From positions 62,001-126,000 of the forward strand of contig JAFSBY010000040.1 of the NCBI GenBank assembly GCA_017437045.1: 64,000 bases of DNA, written 5' to 3'. The stretch comes from Alistipes sp. (GTDB lineage: Bacteria; Bacteroidota; Bacteroidia; Bacteroidales; Rikenellaceae). The notes beneath the pieces are model-generated. The model was given only the letters and a program-made list of their open reading frames with translations. It was not told where the DNA came from and did not search any database. Every line of letters starts with the position of its first letter. Within the stretch, counting starts at the first letter, position 1. This document shows positions 3,123-64,000 of the stretch, in pieces. Position numbers and translations under genes: made by a program.

Positions 3123-8347
<5,225 letters not shown>

Positions 8348-48254: not shown

Positions 48255-48277
48255 TACTGAAATATTGATTTTACGCG

Positions 48278-48453
48278 GAAAGTGTAAGTTTATTCTCGAA
48301 TTACGAACGTAGGAAATTCGAATCACAGAGAGAATAGGCGGACATGATCTCGCGTCATACCTGCATAGGTATGGCGTGGGGCTGTTGCTTGTTTTATCTG
48401 TGAGGTTCCCTACGACCTGTAATTCTAAAATAAGCCTTCAGCACCACGCTTTC
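48278..48453 (+). ncRNA. Rod-shaped structured RNA, candidate 6S RNA
   Basis: A long imperfect hairpin fills most of 48146-48503. Nested pairs: GAAAGTGT (48278-48285) with ACGCTTTC (48446-48453); AAGTTTATT and GAATTAC (48286-48304) with GTAATTC and AATAAGCCTT (48419-48438); CGTAGG (48308-48313) with CCTACG (48409-48414); TCACAGA (48323-48329) with TCTGTGA (48397-48403). Then comes an open bubble (48330-48350 / 48379-48396) and a closed 12-bp end hairpin (48351-48362 / 48367-48378). A closing stem, central bubble and terminal hairpin at about 180-200 nt is the plan of 6S RNA, which binds RNA polymerase. A long leader for the gene at 48504 is the alternative. Confidence 0.5.
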
Positions 48454-48503
48454 TTTGTTGTTTTACCATATCGAGGTGCGGATATATTCATACATTTATT
48501 TTT

Positions 48504-49019
48504 ATGTATTGTAAAAATTGTGGAAAGGAGGTAAATGCACTTGCCTCGGTGTGTGTGTCGTGTGGAGTTTCGGTTGGAAAAGGGAACTCCTATTGTGCTG
48601 ATTGTGGGGCTCAGTTAGACCCTTATGCTACTGTTTGTGGGAAATGCAATAAAGCCATTCAAACTGTTAATATGGCGCAACAGGGTGGGGTCGATTCGTT
48701 TGGCGGAGCCATTCGTTCGTGTTGGACAAAGTATGCCACGTTCAAGGGCCGAGCTAATCGCTGCGAATATTGGTATTGGGTGTTGTTTACCGCGATTTTT
48801 GCGTGGATTCCCTTTATTGGTGAGATTGCAAGCCTTGTCTTCCTCGTTCCATCTTTGGCGGTAGTTGTCAGACGCTTACATGATATTGGAAAGAGTGGTT
48901 GGTGGTATCTGTTTGTGTTGATTCCTATTGTAGGTTGGATTCTGTTGATTGTATGGTTCTGTACTGCCAGCCAGGAGGGTGAAAATAAGTATGGTCCCAA
49001 TCCGAATACGCTTTCGTAA
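48504..49019 (+). CDS. Zinc-ribbon DUF805 membrane protein
   Basis: 171 residues. Two N-terminal zinc ribbons, CKNCG..CVSCG and CADCG..CGKCN (residues about 3-53), then a DUF805 domain (about 70-165: FGGAIRSCWTKYATFKGRANRCEYWYW, RLHDIGKSGWW) with three to four membrane segments. DUF805 proteins are widespread and uncharacterised. Base composition is clearly lower in GC than in the flanking genes, which suggests later arrival. It is followed by another small gene 29 bp later. Confidence 0.82.
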   Translation: MYCKNCGKEVNALASVCVSCGVSVGKGNSYCADCGAQLDPYATVCGKCNKAIQTVNMAQQGGVDSFGGAIRSCWTKYATFKGRANRCEYWYWVLFTAIFAWIPFIGEIASLVFLVPSLAVVVRRLHDIGKSGWWYLFVLIPIVGWILLIVWFCTASQEGENKYGPNPNTLS

Positions 49020-62900: not shown

Positions 62901-62938
62901 AATCATCTCTTGCACAACTTGCAAGGGATGATTTTTTT
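62901..62938 (+). terminator. Terminator of the kbl-lrp operon
   Basis: 14-bp stem (62901-62914 with 62920-62933, one G-U pair), 5-nt loop, then seven T. It cleanly separates the operon from the RNA locus downstream. Confidence 0.92.
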
Positions 62939-62971: not shown

Positions 62972-63001
62972 TTGTTATTTGCAAAACTTTACCTATCTTT
63001 G
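62972..63001 (+). promoter_or_regulatory. Promoter TTG-N19-TATCTTTG for the structured RNA
   Basis: TTG at 62972-62974, a 19-nt spacer, TATCTTTG at 62994-63001. It is one of the best promoter matches in the window, with no coding gene for 330 bp downstream. Confidence 0.65.
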
Positions 63002-63005
63002 TAAT

Positions 63006-63250
63006 GTTGTGGGATTTATTCCATAACATTACATATTTGATGAAAGTGTAATCGCTTTTATCCTTGATCGGAAATCTGGAAAATTTCAAAGCAACAAGGA
63101 TAGCAATCACACTCGTCACTCGGTATTGGTACGTGTTATGTGGTTTTCTTGCCTCATACTCCAATACGAGTGTGGGGTATTGTTTATTTGTTGCAAGGTA
63201 TTCCAGAACCTCCGATCAGATAAACGATTCGGCTCCACACTTTTCTTTTT
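63006..63250 (+). ncRNA. Structured RNA of unknown class, about 245 nt
   Basis: Occupies the gap 62840-63333, which has no convincing gene. Paired regions found by hand: AGTGT/ACACT plus ATCCTTG (63060-63066) / CAAGGAT (63095-63101), with an inner GAAAT/ATTTC; CACTCGGTATTGG (63117-63129) / CCAATACGAGTG (63161-63172); and GTGTGGGG (63170-63177) / CTCCACAC (63233-63240) enclosing ATTGTTTAT (63179-63187) / ATAAACGAT (63220-63228) and AGGT/ACCT. The last stem is followed by TTTTCTTTTT, like an intrinsic terminator. A further 12-bp hairpin (63001-63032) overlaps the predicted start. I do not recognise the class. It could be a trans-acting sRNA or a leader of the genes at 63334. Confidence 0.55.
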
Positions 63251-63333
63251 GTATATTAATTAAGCACTGACCATATGGGGCTGATGGTATTTGAATTTAG
63301 AAAACTGATTACAACCTTTTAAATTTAAGTACA

Positions 63334-63813
63334 ATGAAAAAGATTCTTTTATTCTTATTGCTGGCTGTATGTGCTATGCCGGTGGTTAATGCTCAAGTGA
63401 GAGGTAAGGCGAAGGTTGCTGTTTATGTAACCGGTAAGATGGGTAATGTAGAACGTAAGCTTATTAGCTCTAAAGCCTTATCGTGTCTTGTGCGTAGTGA
63501 CCGGTATGTTGCGCTTGAACGAACAGACTCTTTCTTGAATGCAATTATGAAGGAGCAGGACTTTCAACTCTCTGGTGAGGTGAGTGATGAACAGGTTGCT
63601 GAGATTGGAGCTAAATATGGTGCTCGTTATGTGGCGGTTTTTGATGCGAATAAAACGCCTGATGATTATTGTCTGATGTCTGCTAGATTGGTGGATGTAG
63701 AAACAGGAGTGATAATTAAGTCTGTAGATGGAGAGCGTATAATTGATTCTACAGCAGATTTGATAGGATTAACAAATAATCTTTCATATCGACTTTTTGT
63801 TCAATCTAAATAA
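63334..63813 (+). CDS. Secreted CsgG/LpoB-like protein
   Basis: 159 residues. Signal peptide (MKKILLFLLLAVCAMPVVNAQ). The mature part KVAVYVTG..SSKALSCLVRSDRYVALERTDSFLNAIMKEQ..VSDEQVAEIGAKYGARYVAVFDAN..ARLVDVETGVIIKS follows the fold shared by the periplasmic part of CsgG and by LpoB. CsgG forms curli-export pores; LpoB activates a PBP. Here there is no lipobox and no pore segment, so only the fold is claimed. It is AT-rich compared with most of the window. Confidence 0.75.
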   Translation: MKKILLFLLLAVCAMPVVNAQVRGKAKVAVYVTGKMGNVERKLISSKALSCLVRSDRYVALERTDSFLNAIMKEQDFQLSGEVSDEQVAEIGAKYGARYVAVFDANKTPDDYCLMSARLVDVETGVIIKSVDGERIIDSTADLIGLTNNLSYRLFVQSK

Positions 63814-63824
63814 GACAGGCTATT

Positions 63825-64000
63825 ATGAAAAATATTATATTATTTCTGCTCTTGTTCGTGATTCCGTTTGGTGTTAAAGCTCAAGAGTCACCAGGTAAGG
63901 TAGCTATTTATATAACAGGAGATATCAATCAAGGATATAAAAAGGTGTTTGGTTCTAAAATTGTCTCCAATATTTCAAGTACAGGGTATGTCGCTGTGGA
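63825..64000 (+). CDS. Second secreted CsgG/LpoB-like protein (3' end outside the window)
   Basis: 58 residues visible from ATG 63825: signal peptide (MKNIILFLLLFVIPFGVKAQ), then SPGKVAIYITGDINQGYKKVFGSKIVSNISSTGYVAV, which lines up with KVAVYVTGKMGNVERKLISSKALSCLVRSDRYVAL of the previous gene. The two are tandem paralogues 11 bp apart. The window ends inside the gene. Confidence 0.72.
   Translation, partial: MKNIILFLLLFVIPFGVKAQESPGKVAIYITGDINQGYKKVFGSKIVSNISSTGYVAV

Follow-up and report, generated by a model that had tools for sequence, protein, structure and literature searches.

An apparently undescribed family of folded 5′ mRNA leaders, found in Alistipes and related bacteria mostly before genes for predicted exported proteins

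Within a single genome, c-di-GMP riboswitches act on many genes that are unrelated to one another. The leader family described here resembles the c-di-GMP-I (GEMM) riboswitches in that it occurs in many copies before unrelated, often surface-related genes, and in that its 5′ UTR fold contains tertiary contacts; unlike them, it has no Rfam match, and the leader and the genes behind it (its cargo) appear to recombine. The cobalamin riboswitch (RF00174) is similar in another respect, as it is a junction RNA in which the loop of a downstream hairpin folds back to pair with the core, close to the start codon. The present leader differs from RF00174 in that no Rfam model matches it, that there was no B12-related gene among the cargo when one gene was considered for each copy in its own genome, and that the partner of its downstream hairpin, P5, is a bulge of the closing stem.

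Other structured RNAs have been described in Bacteroidetes, including Flavo-1 (RF01705), Bacteroidales-1 (RF01693), and 6S-Flavo (RF01685) (PMC2864571, in part), while none of these three models matches either the window, which is the whole stretch of 64,000 nt of Alistipes sp. DNA that was analyzed, or 20 related loci. The available part of a study on Flavobacterium psychrophilum, a member of the same phylum, reports 64 structured 5′ regions, some of them without Rfam hits, as well as the conserved folded sRNA Rfp18 (PMC9723704); the present leader is likewise a predicted structured 5′ transcript. A search for structured RNAs in the HMP2 human-microbiome data included Alistipes and gave cis-acting candidates. 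The Alistipes example in the available part of that study is a 49-bp L20 leader, unlike the present one, and an unlabelled fragment of the leader family may be among its thousands of candidates (PMC8040213).

The searches for a known family gave the following results. With Rfam 15 at gathering thresholds there was no family in the RNA stretch of the window, the only match being RNase P elsewhere in the window, and in E-value mode the stretch gave five sub-threshold matches, all to eukaryotic RNAs. The 20 related loci had no match at threshold except a tRNA in L191; in E-value mode L202 had no match up to E 5, and L206 matched only mir-310 and ES173 sRNA, both of them on the opposite strand and scoring far under threshold. 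The literature search returned no recognized description of the family, and members without a label could be present in two published lists of candidates. This family of folded 5′ mRNA leaders is apparently previously undescribed. Judged from sequence comparisons, the leader may act on translation via a pseudoknot, and it would have been retained while the cargo was exchanged.

The leader at the window locus and its distribution

All features of the window given below lie on the + strand. The preceding kbl-lrp operon is closed by a terminator with a 14-pair stem and a T-run (62901–62933), as a sequence-only reading of this DNA had proposed. The near-ideal promoter claimed in the same reading was also found in the sequence, as a Bacteroidetes-type TTG-N19-TATCTTTG element at 62972–63001 (TTG at 62972–62974, TATCTTTG at 62994–63001). 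Directly after the promoter is the 5′ hairpin P0 (63004–63029), followed by the core, which is closed by the helix P1. The description of the stretch as strongly structured is borne out by the folding energy of 63004–63252, which is −83.7 kcal/mol versus −53.5 ± 4.7 kcal/mol for 200 dinucleotide shuffles, none of which was as stable (z −6.44). On both strands there are ORFs of 40 to 100 aa that overlap the RNA region; since no more than 33 of 181 leader copies have a + frame that is open from one end of the core to the other, a hidden coding gene in the core is unlikely, which agrees with the earlier view that the stretch contains no convincing gene.

The sequence TTTTCTTTTT (63241–63250) directly follows the closing stem, as had been noticed; the extent given in that reading needs correction, as the conserved unit continues beyond the U-run to the hairpin P5, at ~63294. 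The whole leader is ~310 nt long, far longer than the median 5′ UTR of B. thetaiotaomicron (32 nt; PMC7366714) or of F. psychrophilum (24 nt; PMC9723704), as given in the available parts of those reports. Structure prediction for the full-length leader gave the window copy an extra A/U-rich hairpin at ~63285–63332, just 5′ of the CsgG-like start codon. The first cargo gene (63334–63813) encodes a secreted CsgG-domain protein (Pfam PF03783, E 9.7e-7). The second, related cargo gene (63825–63998) runs beyond the window end, has 279 aa in L006, and shows 40% identity with the first across 155 residues. A second leader copy, of a divergent subtype, is located at 48266–48498 (67.7 bits, E 2.3e-17), with the promoter box, the bulge GCACC, and the loop GGTGC all visible, and the gene behind it (48504–49019) encodes a double zinc ribbon, DUF805 protein (PF05656, E 1.4e-28).

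The distribution of the leader was analyzed with several searches. BLASTN with 62995–63260 found three copies in the own genome; of 101 genomes, 54 had a match, including 52 of 61 genomes of the same genus (own genome counted). A covariance model, R1, built from 32 copies (alignment A1), found nine copies in the own genome (E 1.3e-5 or better) and detected the leader in 84 of 91 same-genus genomes, the own included, and, elsewhere in the order, in 16 of 59 genomes, with at least 13 matches in one genome among strictly pre-filtered candidates. In an even draw from the phylum, R1 matched 12 of 198 genomes including the own, that is 11 of 197 others, which matched more weakly (best E per genome 1.3e-16 to 4.9e-8) and all belong to the same class, Bacteroidia. 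A scan of public genome records with a 20-nt pattern gave at least 118 stretches; each of the 118 matches the core profile, one being fragmentary. Among the matches listed (80 of at least 118) most are labelled Alistipes or Rikenellaceae, and there are also Bacteroides acidifaciens and Candidatus Phocaeicola, Cryptobacteroides, and Pullibacteroides species. The pattern bases are invariant by construction in the copies selected in this way (L067–L184), and conservation was repeated on 64 representatives of 78 copies chosen without the pattern.

A phage or plasmid origin was considered as well, and these elements are not the main carriers in these collections: the pattern scan gave at least one viral contig, together with two phage records and no plasmids. 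The copies on contigs labelled as viral or phage are L185 7106–7311 and those in the phage records MT838511 and MT836914.

Fold of the core and its pairing with a downstream hairpin

The aligned copies share a common order of promoter box, P0, core, U-rich linker, P5, and start codon. The −7 box TAnnTTTG was present in all 134 copies with enough upstream DNA and in 10% of shuffles, while the full promoter pattern was present in 90 of the 134 copies versus 1.5% of shuffles. The sequence of P0 is variable and its hairpin is kept; its native energy was below the shuffle mean in 97.7% of 132 copies.

The consensus fold of 32 copies obtained with RNAalifold was a long rod with both-side changes at 24 of 66 pairs. 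A second alignment, A2, contains 89 copies that were aligned without structure and took in 89 of 114 usable copies (117 in total, with three cut ones excluded); the 25 copies omitted by hand were mainly A1 loci renumbered, near-duplicates, and copies with odd 3′ ends. All A2 copies but three are clearly distinct from the 32 of A1, the exceptions being L079, which is identical to an A1 row, and L158 and L118, which are close to one. When a pseudoknotted model of 62 pairs was applied to A2, 93.0% of 5267 cells were paired versus 81.4% in shuffles, both-side changes were observed at 39 of 62 pairs versus 25.0, and there were 636 both-side cells versus 191. The covariation score was 0.330, in comparison with 0.139 in shuffles and 0.05–0.08 when the model was slid by one to three columns. 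None of 500 shuffles reached the real value on any measure, and the slid control matters too, because shuffles lose the relatedness among copies. These results, together with the Rfam negatives, uphold the earlier assignment to an unknown RNA class, for which a search of Rfam and of stem covariation in relatives had been proposed as checks. The G-U cells across copies (353) outnumber the A-C cells (53), and therefore the RNA of the + strand is what is kept.

In the window copy the P1 5′ strand, GAAAGTGT (63042–63049), is paired to 63237–63244, within the segment containing the P1 3′ strand and the U-run (63237–63250), and it shows little variation, with 99.9% of A2 cells paired. The PA 5′ strand (63061–63065) has its partner at 63096–63100 and crosses Px, K, and Py. 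The Px 5′ strand, the local hairpin hpA, and the Py 5′ strand occupy 63067–63095, with the kissing loop CTGGAA at 63076–63081, while the PC arm, with the Py 3′ strand, hpC, and the Px 3′ strand, occupies 63182–63225, with the kissing loop TTCCAG at 63201–63206. Between them is the apical hairpin PB (63117–63172), which is variable in length and has both-side changes at 6 of 10 pairs and 86.8% of cells paired. In A2, both-side changes were observed at all pairs of Px (4/4), K (6/6), Py (7/7), and PA (5/5), and at two of the five pairs of hpA. The fold is pseudoknotted, because PA covaries and crosses Px. PC hardly varies (both-side changes at one of eight pairs) and P1a also barely varies, so that both rest on position and complementarity.

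The simple long hairpin of the first folds was retained only in part: its Px, K, and Py parts are real, while its helices rodS1 and rodPz had no covariation in Alistipes-type copies. Its element rodCAAG beat shuffles (seven both-side cells versus 0.5), and the outer pair of this element was merged into Py. In distant homologues, namely some class-level copies, the rod helix Pz looks paired by eye, so that the rod may apply to them; PC and Pz may be alternatives, since Pz excludes PC.

The P1 3′ strand contains, just 5′ of ACACTTT, a bulge that is mostly NNCTCC or NNCCTC, and its complement is in a hairpin loop 20 to 40 nt further on, as in the pairs CATCTCC/GAGATG, CTGCTCC/GAGCAG, CAACTCC/GAGTTG, and CGACTCC/GAGTCG. 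In the window copy the bulge CGGCTCC (63230–63236) is the partner of the loop GGGGCT (63277–63282) of the P5 hairpin (63270–63288), and the two form six pairs, of which two are G-U. Because the MAFFT alignment A1, and hence R1, is misaligned at P5, this hairpin and the pseudoknot were tested by anchored scripts. The mean best bulge–loop score was 13.3 versus 10.6 ± 0.2 when bulges were re-dealt among copies (138 of 142 copies), and the highest value in 500 such permutations was 11.2. A full 6-pair complement was found in 134 of the 176 copies (of 181) used in this test, in comparison with 70 ± 4.8 (maximum 83) after permutation, and was missing from the other 42; among dissimilar representatives it was found in 74 of 99, versus 38.6 ± 3.6 (maximum 51). 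The P5 stem itself covaries, with a score of 12.5 versus 10.3 ± 0.22 in permutations, among 101 copies preselected for a good pseudoknot score, and it is weak by free energy alone, being below the shuffle mean in 58% of 131 copies. A P5 partner was also seen by eye in five of six divergent copies of the own genome and in the distant homologues L202 (AGTTCC/GGAACT), L204 (AAACCC/GGGTTT), and L215 (GAGCCT/AGGCTC). As read from these comparisons, the conserved predicted secondary structure with compensatory changes reaches the gene start. Around the start codon most copies are rich in A and U, and neither the made nor the broken pseudoknot visibly sequesters this region, which weighs against a gating of translation by the pseudoknot.

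Some copies have other 3′ parts or other surroundings. In L112 5988–5787 (−), L168 309–115 (−), L124 3284–3483 (+), and L170 5674–5875 (+), the core ends in CACACTT, and a shared GAACCG...GATACC replaces the U-run and P5 (by eye); three of these copies sit near locus ends, and downstream of L112 there are an XRE-like regulator and type I restriction-like genes (by eye). The class-level copies L201, L206, L207, L210, L211, and L213, in which inspection by eye found no P5 partner, are upstream of TonB-receptor-like or sigma-factor-like genes (by eye), and several of them have TTGCGA near the core 5′ end; they are perhaps a subfamily with another role. In L096 (Bacteroides acidifaciens DSM 15896) there are tandem leaders on the minus strand, at 5723–5464 and 5314–5040, and in the 400 nt that follow the first leader no ORF of at least 45 aa begins.

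Genes behind the leader and their exchange

The ORFs downstream from the leader were counted in 129 copies with 450 nt or more of downstream DNA, 13 others being too short. In 115 of the 129 copies the start of a same-strand ORF of at least 100 aa is no more than 260 nt away, and the remaining 14 have no such ORF; the distance from the core end to the ATG has a median of 51 nt (quartiles 46–70). The first genes were secreted-like in 90 of 115 cases versus 131 of 445 control ORFs from the same loci, as scored by a simple home-made rule, with leader ORFs of 100 aa or more and control ORFs of 200 aa or more, whose starts are uncertain. The cargo is diverse, with 126 downstream proteins falling into 61 clusters, of which the largest has 29 members and 45 are singletons. 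A Pfam scan of nine genes, one for each leader copy of the own genome, assigned one protein to CsgG, one to zinc-ribbon DUF805, and one to DUF4377, and gave no match for the other six; in the same scan, which also served as a retron test, there was no reverse transcriptase. No metabolic theme was seen in the cargo genes. The labels given to cargo are lipoproteins and fimbrillin-like lipoproteins by eye, and CsgG, DUF805, zinc ribbon, and DUF4377 by domain. In L008, L079, L035, and L104 short ORFs of the form M...APE(F/V)EV were noticed by eye between the leader and the next gene, which often encodes a lipoprotein.

Among 21 loci around CsgG-like homologues, 12 matched the leader model at E 0.1 or better, corresponding to eight distinct leader places, the weakest at 23 bits, while the remaining nine had no leader in the DNA examined. 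The own genome has another tandem CsgG-domain pair, on contig C26, with no leader in the DNA examined around it.

Comparison of related loci points to separate movement of leader and cargo. Leader pairs at least 90% identical had homologous downstream genes in only 9 of 48 cases (these pairs are not independent), and comparison of L136 with L118 and of L008 with L009, over the DNA examined, showed that they are alike only in the leader copies. A further case is that of L273, from G029, and L180, apparently the same locus as contig C30 of G028: their upstream DNA and leader, 1.5 kb in all, agree at 96% identity, the identity stops within 40 nt of the core 3′ end and is followed by different genes, and similarity resumes at 93% inside an ORF. 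The DNA is also conserved on both sides of changed cargo in L146/L141 and L308/L140. There are thus three sites, as compared by sequence, at which both flanks are conserved and the cargo differs. Misassembly of metagenome-assembled genomes at repeats is unlikely to explain the exchange at these three sites, because both flanks are shared; it is possible at the TruA site, for L158 paired with L118 and with L119, where there is no clear return of synteny.

Same-site pairs, defined by upstream-gene identity of 65% or more among 181 unique copies, numbered 17, and they are not independent. The first gene was homologous in six and non-homologous in ten of the 16 testable pairs, while the second upstream gene was homologous in 11 of 14. 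At upstream identity of 80% or more the first gene was homologous in five of eight pairs, the three changed ones representing two sites, and the second upstream gene was kept in seven of seven. Cargo exchange, as judged from these alignments, rests on few independent sites. The window site is empty in G023 (L045), where lrp and the HAD gene are adjacent, ~340 nt apart, without a leader, and among 21 lrp loci searched, some with little DNA behind lrp, the leader was found only at the own locus. These comparisons show that the leader precedes genes for diverse proteins, mostly exported as judged by the rule above, and that it stayed at several sites while genes were replaced.

Possible modes of action

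The interpretation that we favor, with a probability of roughly 60%, is that the RNA forms the 5′ untranslated leader of the operon with the CsgG-like genes and belongs to a new family of cis-acting leaders in the class that includes Alistipes. For the leader role taken separately the case is strong, and we consider it very probable. The main reason for seeing a leader rather than an sRNA is that the P5 pseudoknot links the region before the start codon to the core. A trans-acting sRNA family with its own promoter and terminator, lying merely upstream of genes, would account for the promoter, the U-run, and the strong fold, and among the class-level copies there are some in which no P5 partner was seen by eye and the next long ORF is farther away. 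On the other hand, P5, which is past the U-run, is kept and covaries with the core bulge, and a same-strand ORF follows closely in 115 of the 129 copies, so that a separate sRNA ending at TTTTCTTTTT, one of the two roles offered by the sequence-only reading, is unsupported as the general role; we regard an sRNA family as improbable. Slightly less probable still is a mobile DNA element, MITE-like or a recombination site, with a hairpin acting as DNA. Such an element would fit the terminal AAAGTGT/ACACTTT, the near-identical leaders in unrelated places (L136/L118, L008/L009), and the cargo exchange, and is opposed by the covariation along the whole RNA, the 353 to 53 excess of G-U over A-C, and the conserved promoter and gene position; moreover, the right junction of L273/L180 is inside an ORF, and the two right junctions that were read have no evident common site.

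The other role offered by the sequence-only reading, a long attenuating leader, is supported as regards a leader of the downstream gene, and its attenuating part is considered here as a rival. In a transcription attenuator, P1 and the U-run would be a conditional intrinsic terminator, with P5–bulge pairing or a ligand setting read-through. The U-rich tail is indeed kept (mean 8.6 T in 11 nt; a TTTT run in 126 of 175 copies) and directly adjoins the closing stem, but this stem has just eight A/U-rich pairs, is worth −8.7 kcal/mol as a bare hairpin, and has the 7-nt bulge next inward; a simple terminator scan made no call at P1, and P5 is made only once the polymerase is past the U-run. Attenuation is accordingly an unlikely mechanism, although better placed than the sRNA and the mobile element. 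An orphan riboswitch, with the junction and kissing loop as the aptamer for a widely used signal, is a form of the leader reading and not exclusive of it. The many copies per genome before unrelated genes, the complex covarying tertiary fold, and the partner helix close to the start codon are in its favor, while the absence of a visible metabolic theme in the cargo and of any Rfam riboswitch match in the window and the related loci scanned speak against it. We consider it possible and rather doubtful, and would say the same of a core that senses a ligand.

Returning to the favored cis-acting leader, its predicted mode of action can be outlined. The core would read a common signal, which could be a small molecule, a protein, or a physical condition, and the making or breaking of the P5–P1 pseudoknot just upstream of the start codon would alter translation or mRNA stability, while P0 and the core would protect the mRNA 5′ end. 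Structure near the start can matter, because Bacteroidetes, without Shine-Dalgarno sequences, tune initiation by mRNA structure (PMC6847099, in the part available). We put control of translation or stability through P5 at a little under even odds. The conserved leader could also be an anchor for homologous recombination, by which new genes would gain an existing regulated expression site. A broader and more speculative proposal, which we hold to be possible yet doubtful, is that of a class-wide leader with one common signal, behind which incoming surface-protein genes would recombine, together with a matching P5 loop, and would immediately share its control, to give an exchangeable envelope regulon.

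An RNA of ~310 nt with many copies per genome in common gut bacteria would be among the larger unexplained regulatory RNA families of the class. The fold and the partner helix give precise, testable predictions. As the cargo is accessory and mostly exported, the leader may explain how such genes come under control after transfer.
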